Shown here piece after piece: positions 14,856 to 25,726 of a stretch of 64,000 nt of DNA. A program made the translations under genes and the position numbers. Numbering within the stretch: the first letter of the stretch is position 1; every line of letters begins with the position of its first letter. Origin of the DNA: Sporichthya brevicatena (GTDB taxonomy: Bacteria; Actinomycetota; Actinomycetes; Sporichthyales; Sporichthyaceae); assembly GCF_039525035.1 (NCBI RefSeq), contig NZ_BAAAHE010000044.1:172891-236890 (forward strand). The letters are read 5' to 3'. A model generated the notes under the pieces. It was given only the letters and a program-made list of their open reading frames with translations, ran no database searches and had not been told where the DNA came from.

Positions 14856-15674
14856 TCAGCGCTCGAAGCGCCGCTTGAGCCGGTCGAGCCGACCGGCGAT
14901 GGTTCCGTCGACGACCTCGTCGCCGACCTGGACGAACAGACCGCCCACGATCGACGGGTCGACCTCGGCCTTGACCTGGACGTCGTGGCCGTAGATCCCG
15001 GCCAGCGCGCGGGCCAGCCGGTCCTTCTCCTGCGGCTCCAGCGGAACCGCGGACCGCACCAGGGCGACGAGCTTGCGCCGGCGGTCCGAGACCGCCTTGC
15101 CGAGGTGCGCGATGTTGCGCTCGGGGGTACGGCCACGGGGGTGGCTCACGACCTGGCGCACCAGGCGGACGGTCGAGTCCTTCGCGCGCCCGCTGAGCAG
15201 ACCGGCGACGAGCTCACCCTTGCGGTCCGCGCCGACGGCCGGGTCCACCAGCGCGCCGCGCAGTCCCGGCTCCGCCTCGACGATGCGGCCGAAGCGGAAC
15301 AGCTCGTCCTCGACGTCGTCGAGCTCGCCGAGCGCCTCGGCCCGGGCGATCTCGGCCAGCACCGCGAGGTTCTCGAGGCCGTCGGCCATCTCGCTCGGGC
15401 GCGACCAGCGCTGCGCCGCGAGGGTCGTGACGACCTCGAGCGTCTCGCCGGACACCTTGCCGCTGAACAGGACCTGCGCGACCTCGCTCTTGGCCGAACC
15501 GGGCCGGCTGGGGTCGGACAGCGAGCGGCGGAGCATGTGCTCGGTGTCGACGACCTGCAGCACGGCGAACAGCTCGTCCGAGAGCCGGGCCAGGCCGTTG
15601 GCGTCGAGCCCGCGGCTGACCTGGTCGAACCGGTCGACGGCAGCCGCGAGGGCCGCCTTGGACGCACCCCTCAC
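14856..15674 (-). CDS. atpH: F1 ATP synthase delta subunit (long actinobacterial form)
   Basis: 272 residues, about 95 more than E. coli delta but usual for actinobacteria. Delta links the top of the F1 head to the peripheral stalk. The C-terminal signature KVDPSIVGGLFVQVGDEVVD (here AEVDPSIVGGLFVQVGDEV) is clear. The GTG start overlaps the preceding b-subunit stop by one base (TAGTG), so translation of b and delta is tightly coupled. In mycobacteria these two genes are fused into one b-delta protein; here they are separate but adjacent in the same order. Confidence 0.96.
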   Translation of the reverse strand: MRGASKAALAAAVDRFDQVSRGLDANGLARLSDELFAVLQVVDTEHMLRRSLSDPSRPGSAKSEVAQVLFSGKVSGETLEVVTTLAAQRWSRPSEMADGLENLAVLAEIARAEALGELDDVEDELFRFGRIVEAEPGLRGALVDPAVGADRKGELVAGLLSGRAKDSTVRLVRQVVSHPRGRTPERNIAHLGKAVSDRRRKLVALVRSAVPLEPQEKDRLARALAGIYGHDVQVKAEVDPSIVGGLFVQVGDEVVDGTIAGRLDRLKRRFER

Positions 15675-16282
15675 TAGAACAGCCCTCCCTGACCGGACTG
15701 GCCGGCCGTCTCTCCGGCCGGGGCCGAGGCCACCGGCGCGTTGGAGCTGGCGATCGAGCCGCCCTCGAGCTCGGACAGGAACCGGTCGTTGATCCGGCGC
15801 TGCACCGCGTCGTTCTGGAGCGCCTCGCGGACCTGCCGCTCGGCCAGCTCGACGGCCATGGAGGCGATCTCGGCCTGCAGGGTGCGCACCGCGCTGACCC
15901 GCTCGGCCTCGAGGGCCTCGGTGGCGCGGGCGGTGATCTCGTCCGCCCGGGCCTGCGCGGCGGCCGCCGCCTCCGACACGATCTGCTGGTTCTGCTCCCG
16001 AGCGTCGGCCCGCAGCTTCTCGGCCTCGGCACGAGCCTCGGCGACCGCGTTGTCGTACGCGGCCTGAGCCTCCGCCAGCTTCTGGCTGGCGGCCTCACTG
16101 TCGGCGAGCTGCTTGGCGATCCGCTCCTGCTGGGCCGACATCAGCTTCAGCACCACCGGCACGAGCCACTTCGCGAGGATCGCGACGATGACCACGAAGC
16201 CGATGAGCTCGATCGTGACGCCCTTGGCACCGCCCGAGGCCAGGATCAGGTCACTCGTGGGTGACGTTGTCACTGAATTCAT
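15674..16282 (-). CDS. atpF: FoF1 ATP synthase b-type subunit, second copy (longer)
   Basis: 202 residues. One transmembrane helix (about 24-46, IELIGFVVIVAILAKWLVPVV) is followed by a long coiled coil rich in Ala, Glu and Arg, then a Ser/Gly/Ala-rich tail (about 175-202) not seen in the first copy. It forms part of the peripheral stalk. The coiled coil shares IVxEAAAAAQARADEITA and AQAAYxNAxAxARAEA with the 165-residue copy just upstream, indicating ancestral duplication. It starts with an ATGA overlap with that copy and ends overlapping atpH, so all three are translationally coupled. By position it corresponds to the b half of the mycobacterial b-delta fusion. Confidence 0.93.
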   Translation of the reverse strand: MNSVTTSPTSDLILASGGAKGVTIELIGFVVIVAILAKWLVPVVLKLMSAQQERIAKQLADSEAASQKLAEAQAAYDNAVAEARAEAEKLRADAREQNQQIVSEAAAAAQARADEITARATEALEAERVSAVRTLQAEIASMAVELAERQVREALQNDAVQRRINDRFLSELEGGSIASSNAPVASAPAGETAGQSGQGGLF

Positions 16283-16776
16283 ACCTGCTCCCCCACGACC
16301 CGGCCGGCCAGCTGACCGGCGAGGGCGGAGACGTCGGACTGCAACGAAGCCAGCGCACGCTCGCGCTCCTCGGCCAGCTGAGCCCGGGTGGTCGCGGTGA
16401 TCTCGTCCGCCCGGGCCTGCGCCGCCGCGGCGGCCTCGTCGACGATCGCCTTGTGCTGCGCACGCGCCTCTTCGCGGAGGCGGTTCGCCTCGGCGCGAGC
16501 GTCGGCCATCGCGTTCTCGTAGGCCGCCTGGGCCTCGGCGAGTTTGCGCGTGGCCGCCTCGGTGTCCGACATCGATCCGGAGATCTTCGCCTGCCGCTCG
16601 GCCATGGCCTTGGCGACCGGCGGCACGATGAACTTCCAGACGACGAACAGGACGATCGCGAAGAGGACGAGCTCGACCAGCATGGTCGCGTTGGGGATCA
16701 GGAAGATGTCATCTTCCTCTTCCTCAATCCCCTCGGGGCTTTCCGAGGTGGCGATGCTGTAGGCGAGTCGCAGCAC
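16279..16776 (-). CDS. atpF: FoF1 ATP synthase b-type subunit, first copy (b'-like)
   Basis: 165 residues from a GTG start. An acidic N-terminus (ESPEGIEEEEDDIF) precedes the membrane helix (about 31-52, MLVELVLFAIVLFVVWKFIV) and the stalk coiled coil. Immediately follows atpE by 10 bases, the position of the mycobacterial b' gene. Together with the 202-residue copy it would form a heterodimeric b/b' stator, an arrangement known from photosynthetic bacteria and chloroplasts, instead of the usual b homodimer. The shorter C-terminus ends at LAGRVVGEQV. Confidence 0.93.
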   Translation of the reverse strand: MLRLAYSIATSESPEGIEEEEDDIFLIPNATMLVELVLFAIVLFVVWKFIVPPVAKAMAERQAKISGSMSDTEAATRKLAEAQAAYENAMADARAEANRLREEARAQHKAIVDEAAAAAQARADEITATTRAQLAEERERALASLQSDVSALAGQLAGRVVGEQV

Positions 16777-17142: not shown

Positions 17143-17955
17143 TCAGGCGTGCGCGAGTTCCTTCTCGCCGGGCGCCTTGTCGTGGCCGTCGCCGTGGCCG
17201 TCGCCGTGGCCGTCGCCGTGGTCGTCGTGCGCACCGTGGCTGGCCGCCATCCCGAAGTAGAGGATGGTCAGCAGGGCGAAGATGAAGGCCTGGATGACGC
17301 CGATGGCGAGGTCGAACAGCTTCCACGCGACGTTCGGCGCCCAGGCGACGTAGGTCGGCATCAGACCGATCAGGGCGATCATGATGCCGCCGGAGAAGAT
17401 GTTGCCGAACAGTCGCAAAGCGAGCGTGAACGGCTTGACGATCTCTTCGAGCACGTTCAGCGGCAGCAGCGCCTTGTAGGGCTGGGCCAGGTGCTTGTAG
17501 CTGCCGATGCCGTTGAGCCGGATGGCGTTCACGTGCACCCAGATGATCACGACCAGCGCGATCGAGTACGTCAGGTTCACGTCGGACGTGGCCGGCGGCA
17601 GCCACTCGTGGGCCGGGAGCAGCGCCACCCAGTTGCAGAACAGGATGAAGAAGAACAGCGTGACCGCGAGCGGCACCACGAACGGCGACGTCTTGCCCAG
17701 GGAGTTGTCGACCTCGCCCTGGACCCAGCCGACCACGGCCTCCCAGAGGAGCTGAATCTTGCTCGGGACGCCGCTGGTGGCGGTCCGGGCGAGCCAGAGG
17801 CCCATCAGGATCACGATGGCGCCACCGATGCAGGTGGTGGCGATCGTGTCGATGTGGAGCTCGACACCACCGATGGAGATCTTGTGGTGCTTGCCGACCT
17901 CGACATCGGCAGCCATCACCAGATCGGGGTTCACGGCGTCGGACAGCCGGATCAT
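17143..17955 (-). CDS. atpB: Fo ATP synthase a subunit with His/Asp-rich C-terminal tail
   Basis: 270 residues, membrane stator component that forms the proton half-channels. The essential Arg is Arg181 in [13 protein letters not shown], and several hydrophobic helices are visible. The last 25 or so residues are unusual: [21 protein letters not shown], a tandem GHGD-type repeat after the final helix (split here into short words only for description: HGAHDD, then three GHGD units, then HDK). Overlaps the atpI stop by 4 bases (ATGA). The tail could bind metal or buffer protons at the membrane face; that is inference. Confidence 0.95.
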
Positions 17956-18726: not shown

Positions 18727-19848
18727 TCAGCGCGTCGGTTTTCCGGTCGGTGCACCGACCCGCTGGATGACCGGGAGACGGAGCAGGACGACCCCGACGA
18801 CCACCAGCAACGCCACCGCCACCAGGGCCCACGCCTGGGCGCTGACCAGGGACAAGGCCACGACGCCGAAGGCGATCAGGGCCGACCAGAAGTACATGAT
18901 GAGCACCGCCCCGCGGTGCGAGTGACCGATCTCCAGCAGGCGGTGGTGCAGGTGCTGCTTGTCCGGCGCGAACGGCGACCGGCCGGACATGGTGCGCCGG
19001 ATGATCGCGAGCACGAGGTCGAGGAACGGCGCCGCGATCGCCGCGAACGGCAGGATCAGCGGCAGCAGGGCAGGTGAGACGTCCTCGGACTCGACCGCGC
19101 CGAAGTCGATCTGCCCGGCGAAGCTCACCGTGGAGGCGGCCAGCACGAGCCCGATGAGCATCGAGCCGGAGTCCCCCATGAAGATCTTCGCCGGGTAGAA
19201 GTTGTGCGGCAGGAAGCCCAGACAGATGCCGGCGAGCAGGGCGGAGAACAGCGACGGCGAGATCGCGCGGTCGAACTGCTGCTCGATCGAGAGCAGGTAC
19301 GTGTAGCTGAAGAAGGCCAGGGCCGCGGTCAGCGCGATCCCGGCCAGCAGCCCGTCCAGGCCGTCGACGAAGTTCACGGCATTGACCGTCGCGACCACGA
19401 TGAGCACCGAGAGCAGGAACCCCGAGCTCGCGTCCAGGACGATCGTCGTGCCCGGCACCGGCAGGTAGGTCATCTGGATCCCGAGGACCACCATGACGCC
19501 GGCGGCCAGCACCTGCCCGGCGAGCTTGGTGACCGCGTCCAGGCCCCACTTGTCGTCGACCACCCCGAGCGCGCAGATGATCGTCGCCCCGGCGAGCAGG
19601 GCCCACGGGTCGTGCGAGTTCGCGAACAGCTCGCGGGACAGGAACGGGAGCTCGGCCGCCACCACCAGGCCGGCCGCGAGGCCGACCAGCATCGCCAGCC
19701 CGCCCATGCGAGGGGTCGGGACGGCGTGCACGTCCCGGTCGCGGACCTCCGCCATGACCCCACCGGCCAGGGCGGCCCGACGGACGACCCCGGTGGTCAG
19801 GTACGTGGCGGCGGCGGCAACCAGCATGGTGAGCAGGTACTCGCGCAC
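18727..19848 (-). CDS. wecA: WecA/TagO-type undecaprenyl-phosphate sugar-1-phosphate transferase
   Basis: 373 residues, about ten membrane helices. Members transfer GlcNAc-1-phosphate from UDP-GlcNAc to the polyprenyl phosphate carrier, starting cell-wall glycopolymer (arabinogalactan, teichoic acid or capsule) synthesis. Family motifs: DRDVHAVPTPRMGGLAM, the Asp pair in GVVDDKWGLD, NAVNFVDGLDGL, FMGDSGSM and the cytosolic HLHHRLLEIGHS loop. GTG start at 19848. Its location just upstream of the atp operon is conserved in actinobacteria. Which polymer it initiates cannot be told from this window. Confidence 0.9.
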   Translation of the reverse strand: MREYLLTMLVAAAATYLTTGVVRRAALAGGVMAEVRDRDVHAVPTPRMGGLAMLVGLAAGLVVAAELPFLSRELFANSHDPWALLAGATIICALGVVDDKWGLDAVTKLAGQVLAAGVMVVLGIQMTYLPVPGTTIVLDASSGFLLSVLIVVATVNAVNFVDGLDGLLAGIALTAALAFFSYTYLLSIEQQFDRAISPSLFSALLAGICLGFLPHNFYPAKIFMGDSGSMLIGLVLAASTVSFAGQIDFGAVESEDVSPALLPLILPFAAIAAPFLDLVLAIIRRTMSGRSPFAPDKQHLHHRLLEIGHSHRGAVLIMYFWSALIAFGVVALSLVSAQAWALVAVALLVVVGVVLLRLPVIQRVGAPTGKPTR

Positions 19849-19910: not shown

Positions 19911-20531
19911 CTAGACGGCGGACGAGCCACGACGCCCGGCCGTCGACGCCGGGGCCAGGTGCTCGACCAGCGCCGCCAGGCCCTCGGCGAGCATGTCGGC
20001 GCACAGCCGGAACACGTGCAGGGGCGCTCCGAACGGGTCCGGGATGTCGTCGGCCGGCCGGCCGGGGCCGGGGCGCGGGGTCCGCAGCATCGCGACGCGG
20101 TCGACCAGCACCCGCGCCCGCGCGGCCGGGTCGGCCTCGGGCAGCGTGGCCGGGTACACGCGGCGCGCGAAGCGCGCGAACTCCCGGATCGTGAACGTGC
20201 GCCCGCCGGCGTAGGGGTCGAGCAGGCGCACCTGCTCGCGGTGCTCGCGGGTCGCGCCGAGGATCAGGTCGGCCTCGAGGACCTGGTCGGGGTTCAGCTC
20301 GCGGGCGACGAAGCGGCCCGCCTCGATCCCCCGCTCGGCGAGGACGGCCGCGGCGTGCGGCTCCATCCCGGCGCCGCTGTGCCCCCAGGTGCCCGCGCTC
20401 TCGCAGCGGAACACGCGGGGGTCGGTGCCGATGGCTGCTCTCAGCTGGGCGCCGAGAATCTTCTCGGCGAGCGGGGAACGGCACACGTTCCCGGTCGAGA
20501 CGATCAGGACGCTGAAACGCGTCGCGCTCAC
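19911..20531 (-). CDS. low-molecular-weight phosphatase-like protein lacking the catalytic Cys
   Basis: 206 residues. The fold-defining P-loop reads VSTGNVCRSP with Arg18 kept, but the nucleophile position (the first Cys of CxGNxCRS) is Ser12. The general-acid region IPDPFGAP with Asp165 is present. A Cys-to-Ser change in protein tyrosine phosphatases normally abolishes turnover while keeping phosphate binding, so this may be a pseudophosphatase or use another chemistry. From memory, homologues at this locus in Streptomyces share the STGN form, so it is unlikely to be a sequencing error. GTG start overlaps the upstream sua5 stop (GTGA). Confidence 0.8.
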   Translation of the reverse strand: MSATRFSVLIVSTGNVCRSPLAEKILGAQLRAAIGTDPRVFRCESAGTWGHSGAGMEPHAAAVLAERGIEAGRFVARELNPDQVLEADLILGATREHREQVRLLDPYAGGRTFTIREFARFARRVYPATLPEADPAARARVLVDRVAMLRTPRPGPGRPADDIPDPFGAPLHVFRLCADMLAEGLAALVEHLAPASTAGRRGSSAV

Positions 20532-21187
20532 GCGCCCGAGCCTGTGGCCAGCTCCACGTCGGCGACCACCGACCGGATGTCGTCGACGCTGATGTGACCC
20601 GCGCGCAGGATCCGCGGGCGGCTCCCGGTCACGTCCACGATCGTGGACGGGATGTTGTCGTCGGTGGGCCCGCCGTCGAGGTAGACCTCCACCGAGTCGC
20701 CGAGCTGCTCGCGCGCCTGCGCGACCGTCGTCGCCGGCGGGTAGCCGGTGCGGTTCGCGCTGCTGACGGCCATCGGGCCGGTGGCCTTGAGCAGGTCGAG
20801 CGCGACCGGGTGCAGCGGCATCCGGATCGCGACGGTCTGCGCGGAGTCGCCGAGGTCCCAGGCCAGCGAGGGCTGCTGGTGGCACACGATCGTGAGACCG
20901 CCGGGCCAGAACGCGTCGGCGAGCTCGCGGGCGGCGTCCGACAGGCGCGCGGCGATCCCGTCCAGCGTGCGCATCGTGCCGATCAGCACCGGGACGGGCA
21001 TGTCCCGCCCCCGACCCTTCGCGGCGAGCAGCGCCTCGACGGCCGACGGGGTGAACGCGTCCGCACCGAGTCCGTAGACCGTGTCGGTGGGCAGGACGAC
21101 GAGCTGACCGGCCCCGACGGCGGCACCGGCAGCGGCGAGACCCGCCGCCCGTGCATCGGGATCGGCGCAGTCGTAGGACTGCGGCAA
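20528..21187 (-). CDS. tsaC: L-threonylcarbamoyladenylate synthase (Sua5/TsaC type)
   Basis: Makes threonylcarbamoyl-AMP from Thr, bicarbonate and ATP for the t6A37 modification of ANN-decoding tRNAs. 219 residues with LPTDTVYGLGADAF, the KGRGRDMPVPVLI segment, SSANRTGYPPAT and the C-terminal STIVDV strand typical of the YrdC domain. Length fits the short form. Starts with TTG at 21187; no ATG or GTG is available that keeps the N-terminus. Lies in the prfA-prmC-tsaC cluster common in bacteria. Confidence 0.93.
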   Translation of the reverse strand: MPQSYDCADPDARAAGLAAAGAAVGAGQLVVLPTDTVYGLGADAFTPSAVEALLAAKGRGRDMPVPVLIGTMRTLDGIAARLSDAARELADAFWPGGLTIVCHQQPSLAWDLGDSAQTVAIRMPLHPVALDLLKATGPMAVSSANRTGYPPATTVAQAREQLGDSVEVYLDGGPTDDNIPSTIVDVTGSRPRILRAGHISVDDIRSVVADVELATGSGA

Positions 21188-21357: not shown

Positions 21358-22227
21358 TCAGGCACGAATCGCGGTGACGAACCGGTCCCGTTCGGTGAGG
21401 TCCTGCTGACTGCGCACCTGCGTCCACCGCCCGGTCCGGGCGAAAACCTCGACCACGGCGGGCCCCTGGACGTCCGCGTGCTCCACCGCCACGCGACCAC
21501 CCGTGCGGAGCAGTCGACCGGCGGTGCGCTCGACCGCGCGCACGACGTCGAGTCCGTCGTCCCCGCCCCAGAGGGCGGCGGCGGGATCGTGGTCACGCGC
21601 CTCGACGGCCACGGATTCCCAAGCGTCCAAAGGAATGTACGGCGGATTCGAGACCACAAGATCCACTTCGCCGTCGAGTTCGGGCAGCGCGTCGGCGGCG
21701 TCGCCGGCGTGCAGCGTCACCCCGCTGCCGTCGAGGTTGCGCCGCGCCCAGGCGAGCGCGCCGGGGTCGAGCTCGACGGCGTGGACGACCAGGCCGGGGA
21801 CCTCCGTCGCCAACGCGAGCGCGATGGCGCCCGACCCGGTGCACAGGTCGACGGCGACCGAACCGGCCGGTAATGATCTTGCAACGTCAACCATCTGACC
21901 CACCATCACTTCAGTCTCGGGCCGCGGGACGAAGACCCCGGGACCGACCGCGAGACTGACGTGACGGAAATGGGCGACGCCGGTGAGGTGCTGCAGCGGG
22001 GTGCGCGCAGCCCGCGCCTCGATCAACGGCGCGTAGGCACCGGCGTCGATCTCGTCGAACCGGACAAGGTCGCGGCGCTCGACGCCGAGCACGTGCGCGG
22101 CCAGTTCCTCCGCGTCCGTCCGCGGCGACGCGACCCCCGCGGCCCGCAGCTGCTCGGTCGCGGCCGCGAGCGCCGCGCGGAGCGGCTGCCGCGTCACCGG
22201 CTCGGACGTCACCGGCTCAGTCGTCAC
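21358..22227 (-). CDS. prmC: release factor glutamine N5-methyltransferase
   Basis: Methylates the Gln of the GGQ motif of RF1 and RF2 with SAM. 289 residues: N-terminal helical domain (1-85), SAM-binding motif [15 protein letters not shown] (about 126-140) and the substrate Gln-binding NPPY at 194-197. Overlaps the end of prfA by 11 bases, so enzyme and substrate are co-expressed. The GTG start at 22227 lies in a short stretch of GTCACCGG repeats; later GTG codons are possible starts. Confidence 0.95.
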
Positions 22228-23281
22228 CGGCGAGGGCAGCGGCCTGGTCGCCCGCGATGACCGCGTCGATGACCGCGTCGAGGTCGCCGTCGAGGACCTG
22301 GTCGAGGTTGTAGGCCTTGAAGTTCACCCGGTGGTCGGAGATGCGGTTCTCCGGGAAGTTGTACGTGCGGATCCGCTCCGAGCGGTCGACCGTGCGGATC
22401 TGGCTCTTGCGCAGGTCCCCGGCCTCCTTGTCCGCCTCCTCCTGCGCGGCGGCCAGCAGCCGGGCCCGCAGGATGCGCATCGCCTGCTCCTTGTTCTGGA
22501 GCTGGCTCTTCTCGTTCTGGCAGGAGACGACGATCCCCGTCGGGATGTGTGTGAGGCGCACGGCCGAGTCGGTGGTGTTGACGCTCTGCCCGCCCGGGCC
22601 GGAGGAGCGGAAGACGTCGACGCGCAGGTCGTTCAGGTTCAGCTCGACGTCGACCTCCTCGGCCTCCGGGAGCACGAGCACGCCGGCGGCGGAGGTGTGG
22701 ATGCGGCCCTGGGACTCGGTCACGGGCACGCGCTGCACGCGGTGCACGCCGCCCTCGAACTTGAGGCGGTCCCAGACGCCCTCGGCGTCGGTCCCCCGCG
22801 TCTTGATCGCCACCGAGACGTCCTTGTAGCCGCCGAGGTCGGACTCGGTGGCGTCGAGGACCTCGGCCTTCCAACCGCGGCGTTCGGCGTACCGCAGGTA
22901 CATGCGCAGCAGGTCGCCGGCGAACAGCGCGGACTCCTGGCCACCCTCGCCGGCCTTGACCTCGAGGATGACGTCCTTGCCGTCGTTGGGGTCGCGGGGC
23001 AGCAGCAGCTGCCGCAGCTTTTCCCCCAGCTCCTCACGCCGCGCGGTCAGTTCCGGGATCTCGGCCTTGAAGGACTCGTCCTCGGCCGCGAGCTCCGTCG
23101 CCGCCGCGAGGTCGTCCCCGATCTGCTCCCACGCGCGGTGCGTCGCGACGATCGGGCCCAGCTCGGCGTACCGCCGGCCGAGCTTGCGCGCCGCGCCCGC
23201 GTCGGCGTGCACCGCCGGGTCGGCCAGCTTCTTCTCGAGCTCGGCGTACTCGTCGATCAGCTCCTGCACGGTCTCGAACAC
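22217..23281 (-). CDS. prfA: peptide chain release factor 1
   Basis: Terminates translation at UAA and UAG. 354 residues. The codon-recognition tripeptide PVT is at 186-188 and the catalytic GGQ at 230-232 within [14 protein letters not shown]. The GTG start at 23281 gives the family N-terminus [19 protein letters not shown] and has AGGAGG 8 bases upstream; an extension to 23317 has no support. Confidence 0.96.
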
Positions 23282-23319
23282 TGCTGGCCTCCTTCCGAAC
23301 GTCGGTCCCGAACACAAGA

Positions 23320-23713: not shown

Positions 23714-25726
23714 CTACTCGTCCCCGCCCTCCTCGCCCGGGGTCGTCTTCTGGACCTGCATGAGGAACTCGATGTTCGACTTGGTCTTCCGCAAGCGCTC
23801 GAGCAGCAGCTCGATGGCCTGCTGGTCGTCCAGGGCGGCGAGCACGCGGCGGAGCTTCCAGACGATCTGGAGCTCGTCCTTGCTCATCAGGATCTCTTCC
23901 TTGCGGGTGCCGGACGCGTCCACGTCCACCGCCGGGAAGATCCGCTTGTCGGCGAGCTTCCGGTCGAGCTTGAGCTCCATGTTCCCGGTGCCCTTGAACT
24001 CCTCGAAGATCACCTCGTCCATGCGGGACCCGGTCTCGACCAGGGCCGTGGCGAGGATCGTCAGGGAGCCACCGTTCTCGATGTTGCGCGCGGCGCCGAA
24101 GAACTTCTTCGGCGGGTAGAGCGCGGTCGAGTCGACACCGCCGGACAGGATCCGCCCGGAGGCCGGCGCGGCCAGGTTGTACGCCCGGCCCAGGCGGGTG
24201 ATCGAGTCGAGCAGCACGACGACGTCGTGACCGAGCTCGACCAGACGCTTGGCGCGCTCGATCGAGAGCTCCGCGACCGTCGTGTGGTCCTCGGCGGGGC
24301 GGTCGAAGGTGGAGGCGATGACCTCACCCTTCACCGACCGCTGCATGTCGGTGACCTCCTCGGGCCGCTCGTCGACGAGGACGACCATGAGGTGGCACTC
24401 CGGGTTGTTGCGGGTGATCGCGTTGGCGATCGCCTGCAGCACCATCGTCTTGCCGGCCTTGGGCGGGGAGACGATGAGACCGCGCTGGCCCTTGCCGATC
24501 GGCGCGACGAGGTCGATGACGCGGGTGGTCATCGAGTTGACGTCGTGCTCCAGACGCAGGCGCTCCTGCGGGTACAGCGGCGTGAGCTTGCCGAACTCGA
24601 CGCGCTCGCGCGCGGCGTCCGGCTCCATGCCGTTGACGGTGTCGAGGCGGACGAGCGCGTTGAACTTCTCGCGCCGCTCCCCGTCGCGGGGCTGCCGCAC
24701 CGCACCGGTGACGGCGTCACCCTTGCGCAGGCCGTACTTGCGGACCTGGGCGAGCGAGACGTAGACGTCGTTCGGGCCGGGCAGGTAGCCGCTGGTCCGC
24801 ACGAACGCGTAGTTGTCGAGGATGTCGAGGATCCCGGCGACGGGGATGAGGACGTCGTCCTCGCTGATCTCGATGTCGCCCGGCTCGTAGCCACCCGGGC
24901 CCCGGGTCCGGCCGCCGCGCTGACGGTCCCGGTACCGGCCGCGGCGCCGACGGCGACCGCCGCCCTCACCGTCGTCCTCGTCGTCGTCGCGCGGACCGTT
25001 GTCCCGGTCGCGCTGGTCGCGCGGACCGCGGTCGTCCCGCATGCGGTCGTCACGGGGGCCGCGGTCGTCCCGCGGGCCGCGGTCGTCGCGGGCGCCCCGG
25101 TCCTCGCGGGCGCCCCGGTCCTCGCGCTGACCCCGGTCCTCCCGGGGAGCACGGTCCTCGCGGGGGCCGCGGTTGTTCGGGCCCGAGCCGTCGGGGCGGT
25201 CGCTGCGGTTGCGCTGGCGGTCGCGCTGGCGCTCCCGGCGCTCACTGCGCTCGGTGGTGTCGGCGCCGGAGTCGGTGTCGGCGGCCGCCGCGTCACCGGA
25301 ACGTTCACCCGAACGGGTGTCGACGGCGTCGTCGGCGGGCGCGGTCGCGGGGCGCTGGGCCCGGCGCGAGGTCCGCGCGGGGGCCTCGGTGGTGTCCTCG
25401 GACTTGCTCTCCGGCTTGCTCTCCGGCTTGCTCTCCGGCTTGCTCTCCGGCTTGTTCTCGGACTTGCTCTCGGACTTGCTCTCGGACTTGCTGGGCGCGT
25501 CCGCGGGGGCCGTGGCCCCACCACCGGCGCGGCCCGCGGTGATCGCCTCGATGAGCTGGCTCTTGCGCATCCGGGCGGTGCCGGTGATGCCCATGCCCGC
25601 GGCCATGGCCTGCAGCTCCGAGAGCACCATGCCGTTCAGGCCCTCGCCACGGCGCCGGCGGGTCGTTCCGCCGCCGTCCCCCGACGACTCCGCCGTCGAG
25701 GAAGCGAGTTCTGTGGTTTCTGTCAC
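23714..25726 (-). CDS. rho: transcription termination factor Rho with long disordered N-terminal insertion
   Basis: 670 residues versus 419 in E. coli. Rho_N helical domain at about 33-66; residues 67-280 are an inserted low-complexity region, first Lys/Ser/Glu repeats ([12 protein letters not shown], then KPESKPES units, 79-110), then Arg/Asp-rich units of REDRG and RDDRG type (189-250); cold-shock RNA-binding domain from about 282; ATPase with P-loop SPPKAGKT at 420-427. Such inserts in actinobacterial Rho bind RNA and broaden termination on structured GC-rich transcripts. GTG start with AAGGA 9 bases upstream. The 188-base leader shows no clear riboswitch. Confidence 0.96.

Follow-up and report, generated by a model that had tools for sequence, protein, structure and literature searches.

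What becomes of a low molecular weight (LMW) phosphatase when its catalytic cysteine is replaced by serine? This question is raised by a gene of Sporichthya brevicatena that lies in a stretch of 64,000 nucleotides, referred to here as the window. The protein could be a decayed enzyme, an enzyme with an altered mechanism, or a fold put to another use, and the answer depends on how widely the substitution is shared, how often it arose and what has been conserved around it.

The gene and its neighbourhood

The 206-residue product matches the LMWPc family (PF01451) with 69.9 bits (E 3.5e-19; Pfam cut-off 23.2), and an NCBIfam search with it returned no equivalog above cut-off. A preliminary description, made from the sequence alone, had read a P-loop with Ser12 beside retained Arg18, Ser19 and Asp165, a GTG start overlapping tsaC, and a prfA-prmC-tsaC-wecA-atp setting, and all of this was confirmed. 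The translation runs VLIV-S12-T-G-N-V-C17-R18-S19-P around the substituted position, and the start of the gene shares four bases with the stop of tsaC on the same strand. The order of genes in the window is rho, prfA, prmC, tsaC, the LMW gene, a WecA-type gene and the atp genes, with the expected domains of each product present (Table 1). Identification as an arsenate reductase of the thioredoxin type (ArsC) was rejected: Ser12 replaces the N-terminal nucleophilic Cys, and the NCBIfam ArsC models reach 20 of 174.3 bits. The same genome (G000) holds three further LMWPc matches, namely a PtpA-type protein with Cys (L001), an ArsC-like protein (L002) and a Cys relative located elsewhere (L004).

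Table 1. Positions in the window of the LMW-phosphatase-like gene, its motifs and the adjoining genes
Feature	Position	Strand	Remarks
LMW-phosphatase-like gene	19911..20531	minus	206 aa; GTG start 20529-20531, TAG stop 19911-19913
P-loop STGNVCRSP, residues 12-20	20472..20498	minus	Ser12 codon TCG, plus-strand 20496-20498
Acid-loop Asp165-Pro166	20034..20039	minus	kept
tsaC (Sua5/YciO/YrdC, PF01300)	20528..21187	minus	4-base overlap with the start of the LMW gene
Glycosyl transferase family 4 gene, WecA-type	18727..19848	minus	next downstream of the LMW gene
prmC (PrmC_N and methyltransferase domain)	21358..22227	minus
prfA-type release factor (PCRF and RF-1)	22217..23317	minus

Some features of the surrounding genes deserve separate mention. 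In Rho (23714-25726), Rho_N is separated from the RNA-binding domain by a long insert of Arg/Asp-rich repeats, and the atp cluster contains two ATP-synt_B (b-type subunit) genes in tandem (15674-16282 and 16279-16776). ATP synthase subunit a (17143-17955) scores 256 and 244 bits against genomes of other families (G010 and G015) versus 28 bits against G003, which belongs to the window's family, and G003 also provides the best match, at 613 bits, of the WecA-type protein near the atp genes. Either the window's genome or G003 may carry atp genes that replaced the original ones.

Distribution and origin of the serine form

Of 393 genomes of the class that were surveyed, 178 contain matches at E values of 1e-30 or less, and 208 loci were inspected, comprising the strongest matches and 60 further regions, a subset of all matches. 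tsaC lies directly upstream on the same strand in 76 of the 208, a count that includes several loci per genome. Among these 76 (duplicates included), 51 encode Ser, all within STGNVCRSP, and 25 encode Cys. Away from tsaC, 131 of 132 loci have Cys, and the remaining one, listed as 'F', is the misparsed ArsC-like L002. Removal of identical sequences and of rows below 120 bits left a distinct set in which Ser12 is present in 44/44 members of one clade, and Cys in all 19 other tsaC-linked and all 124 unlinked relatives. The 44 Ser sequences derive from five genomes of the window's family and, for the other 39, from one Streptomyces-like genus (g19); Ser rows among the 208 loci are limited to these two groups, and the Ser form occurs in all five genomes of the window's order. 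Since the tsaC-linked genes of other actinomycete families carry Cys at position 12, Ser is a derived, lineage-specific state. The preliminary description had asked whether Ser12 is conserved among actinobacterial homologues and had counted homologues with Cys against its reading. Conservation is complete inside the Ser clade, where no distinct sequence has Cys, but does not extend to other families at the same locus, which supply the 25 linked Cys loci.

Two P-loop patterns, with Ser written as TCN or AGY, were also scanned over 396 genomes of the phylum. They matched 2 and 10 genomes, respectively, always at this P-loop, and these are the window's genome and 11 genomes of g19, which by a count made by eye are all the g19 genomes in that sample. 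Reversed patterns, used as a control, gave no match in one scan and a single match in the other. A P-loop pattern open to either Ser or Cys was matched by 146 of 147 genomes of the order to which G021, a g19 genome, belongs. Among the matches listed, which cover 81 g19 genomes, at least 80 genomes have exactly one Ser row and 55 of the 81 have an additional Cys P-loop row. Given these separate Cys genes, and the PtpA-type gene of the window's genome, cellular phosphatase activity need not have been lost.

Family f117 belongs to the same order as g19, and its Cys matches were considered as a possible conflict with fixation of Ser; this was dropped, as all 14 are PtpA-type and none has tsaC in the flanks retrieved. 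In eight genomes (seven of f117 and one of f116) a tsaC-linked LMW gene was not found, and only weak matches of PtpA strength (52-67 bits) were obtained. A DNA search found no Streptomyces-like Ser gene on plasmids. The plasmid-borne Streptomyces relatives retrieved (3 of 35 matching records; L264, L265 and L266) all have Cys12, with His replacing Cys17; their P-loop reads CTGN[LV]HRS and two of the three adjoin a tyrosine autokinase gene. Separately, a record labelled Vibrio cholerae (L038; contig WNZI01000020.1, 3001-3510) encodes an LMW phosphatase relative of actinobacterial type, and may be mislabelled or contaminated.

The second Ser genus is probably Streptomyces. Against 8dy7 and 7vpd, RpoB of G021 reaches 2071 and 2069 bits, respectively, compared with about 1711 for the next group, and the genus name depends on the source of these two structures, which we take to be Streptomyces. 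In a locus of this genus (L226) the LMW gene again overlaps tsaC and is followed by glyA, while in the window it is directly followed by the WecA-type gene. In S. coelicolor, TsaC is SCO5362 according to PMC4932002, and PMC3224560 places SCO5362 among prioritised orphans; judging from gene order, the counterpart of the window protein is probably SCO5363, the gene after it. Among open-licence papers, no published study of this LMW protein was found.

The Ser rows, 44 in all, form one clade (99/94) with a single change of state in a gene tree built from 127 rows, and in a tree of 54 rows built without the P-loop columns they remain one clade (93/90). The gene trees thus support a single replacement of Cys12 by Ser, dating from an ancestor shared by the window's family and the Streptomyces-like genus; relatives retain a Cys enzyme at this locus. 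Several independent events are rejected, as both trees show one change. At the species level, a concatenated tree of Rho, AtpB, WecA, PrmC, PrfA and TsaC from 11 genomes, a weak test, leaves the two Ser families unresolved, and a constraint that groups them costs 0.47 log units (p-AU 0.47).

The codon history and substitution rates also speak to maintenance of the residue. The Ser12 codon must have switched between TCN and AGY at least twice (17 Ser rows), with TCN-coded g19 rows near the base of the clade and AGY-coded rows within it on both trees. Two bases must change in each switch, with Cys or Thr as the intermediate, and Ser is what remains. By the Nei-Gojobori method, dN/dS lies between 0.20 and 0.26 inside the window's genus, and for g19 the median of 741 pairs is 0.185; the value is higher (0.42-0.55) between the two genera of the window's family. 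A decaying gene, a sequencing error or chance would have the loss of the nucleophile itself as the only point in its favour; the same loop in 44 distinct sequences that form one clade with dN/dS of about 0.2 refutes this explanation, leaving it a negligible probability.

The pocket and its probable role

All ten pocket columns tested (12-19, 165 and 166) are invariant in the Ser clade, versus 54 of 200 columns overall (hypergeometric 1e-6, indicative only because the rows are related). Together with the single origin, the low dN/dS and the persistence of Ser through changes of codon class, this bears out the earlier view of a P-loop that is altered but conserved rather than decayed. Outside the loop, W49 and H51 are each present in 44/44 Ser sequences, compared with 11/19 and 5/19 tsaC-linked Cys rows, which suggests one fixed ligand for the Ser proteins. 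Phe74 is shared by 62 of 63 Ser and linked Cys rows. Besides Ser12, the sole clean difference within the P-loop is Val16, found in 44/44 Ser sequences where the linked Cys proteins have Ile or Leu. An AF2 model of the window protein, computed from an alignment of 82 rows, has a mean pLDDT of 92.8 and adopts the LMW-PTP fold, with Z of about 22 to YwlE and others; for 4etn, 148 residues superpose at 1.7 A (Z 22.5). The closest folds are those of YwlE, Thermus TT1001 and other LMW-PTPs, tied within one Z.

PTP mutants in which the catalytic Cys is changed to Ser bind substrate without turning it over and are classically inactive. By this analogy, and from the sequence and model, we consider it fairly probable that the window protein is a lineage-fixed, catalytically impaired LMW phosphatase, i.e. 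a bacterial pseudophosphatase, most likely acting as a binder of a phospho-ligand and hence as a natural 'substrate trap'. The conserved phosphatase fold and the lost nucleophile are the traits of such a protein. The predicted fold is intact, and so are the acid loop and the phosphate-binding P-loop, Arg18 included. Ser12 would be unable to act as the usual thiol nucleophile, so that turnover would be lost or very slow. The protein would then bind one particular phosphorylated ligand, probably a phosphorylated residue of a partner protein, and either shield or sense it. Between the two roles offered by the preliminary description, phospho-binding is most likely and appears sound by analogy; a 'novel catalytic' role has no direct support. 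Two observations sit less easily with a pure binder: Asp165 is not obviously needed for binding, yet it is invariant, and conservation this strict might also reflect the needs of the fold or of a protein contact. The higher dN/dS between the two genera of the window's family likewise weighs against the favoured reading.

Another reading is that the protein serves as a scaffold or as a partner of, for example, TsaC, and has lost phosphate binding, the P-loop being kept for folding. tsaC adjoins the LMW gene in all 51 Ser loci (duplicates included) and overlaps it in both the window and L226. However, the phosphate-site residues N15, R18, S19, D165 and P166 are all invariant, and Cys relatives are also tsaC-linked, so the linkage does not track Ser; a scaffold is on balance unlikely. 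If Ser12, Cys17 or water took the place of Cys12, the protein could still be an active phosphatase, which would fit with the invariance (44/44) of the acid loop and Cys17. But Cys17 is equally invariant in relatives with Cys12 (143/143) and is therefore not a compensating change, and this, along with the inactivity of the Cys-to-Ser mutants, makes retained activity highly improbable.

At this locus a bacterial LMW-PTP relative has lost its nucleophile a single time, and the loss has become fixed throughout a large genus that is probably Streptomyces. If the protein is indeed a phospho-binding pseudophosphatase, these tractable laboratory organisms would offer a natural substrate trap from which the phospho-ligand could be fished out directly. 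The protein also bears on which arginine- and tyrosine-phosphorylation proteins are used by actinobacteria; according to PMC9604228, an arginine phosphatase had been identified in neither M. smegmatis nor M. tuberculosis.

Comparison with known systems

The window protein shares its Pfam family, fold, P-loop Arg and Ser and DP acid loop with the LMW protein-tyrosine phosphatases (PF01451), such as PtpA and Wzb, and differs from them in that the catalytic Cys of C(X)4CR(S/T) is Ser12 throughout the 44-member clade.

Within this family, the arginine phosphatase YwlE and its S. aureus counterpart PtpB provide the top PDB sequence match (4pic) and some of the closest fold matches (4etn and 4kk4, tied with others within one Z). 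Relative to YwlE, the window protein has some 40 additional residues ahead of the DP loop. The title of 4KK4 is 'YwlE arginine phosphatase - C7S mutant with phosphorylated active site serine'. The same substitution, together with the retained Asp165, would fit a protein in which Ser12 is a phosphoryl acceptor that takes phosphate from a high-energy phospho-residue such as phospho-Arg and keeps it, either turning over once as an enzyme or persisting as a phospho-Ser12 signal. In S. aureus the gene order is NWMN_2020-ptpB-glyA (PMC8001253), and ptpB thus just precedes glyA, as does the LMW gene in the Streptomyces-like locus, although not in the window. The tsaC linkage, plus the glyA linkage in relatives, hints at the YwlE/PtpB lineage. 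On the other hand, T11 of PtpB and YwlE, which confers phospho-Arg specificity (PMC8001253), corresponds to Val16 here and to Ile or Leu in the linked Cys relatives. An arginine phosphatase was set aside on this ground, with Val16 in 44/44, and an acceptor role is rather unlikely. A search for arginine kinases (PF00217) gave matches in 0/20 genomes, and in 0/14 controls, so that it carries no weight for or against. In the boldest form of the acceptor reading, the protein would be a natural YwlE-C7S: a phosphoramidate or another activated phospho-residue would donate its phosphate to Ser12, which would retain it as stable phosphoserine. In streptomycetes an ancient phosphatase would then have become a signalling switch that receives phosphate, at a locus resembling that of the Firmicutes arginine phosphatase. 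This is a slender prospect.

Away from tsaC, the closest Cys relatives, at about 35-45% identity, are Wzb-like partners of actinobacterial tyrosine kinases ('low molecular weight phosphatase family protein'), which differ in having Cys12 and in not lying beside tsaC. A Wzc-like kinase is found in the flank of 32/132 unlinked loci versus 0/76 tsaC-linked ones, a rough contrast since flank lengths differ between the groups. These kinases hint at phospho-Tyr, and argue against the acceptor role.

The favoured reading, a phospho-binding pseudophosphatase, has its nearest parallels in the eukaryotic pseudophosphatases of the STYX type and in laboratory Cys-to-Ser substrate traps, which keep an intact PTP pocket without the nucleophile. 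Those proteins belong to another PTP class and are eukaryotic or engineered, whereas the window protein is a natural bacterial relative of the LMW-PTPs.
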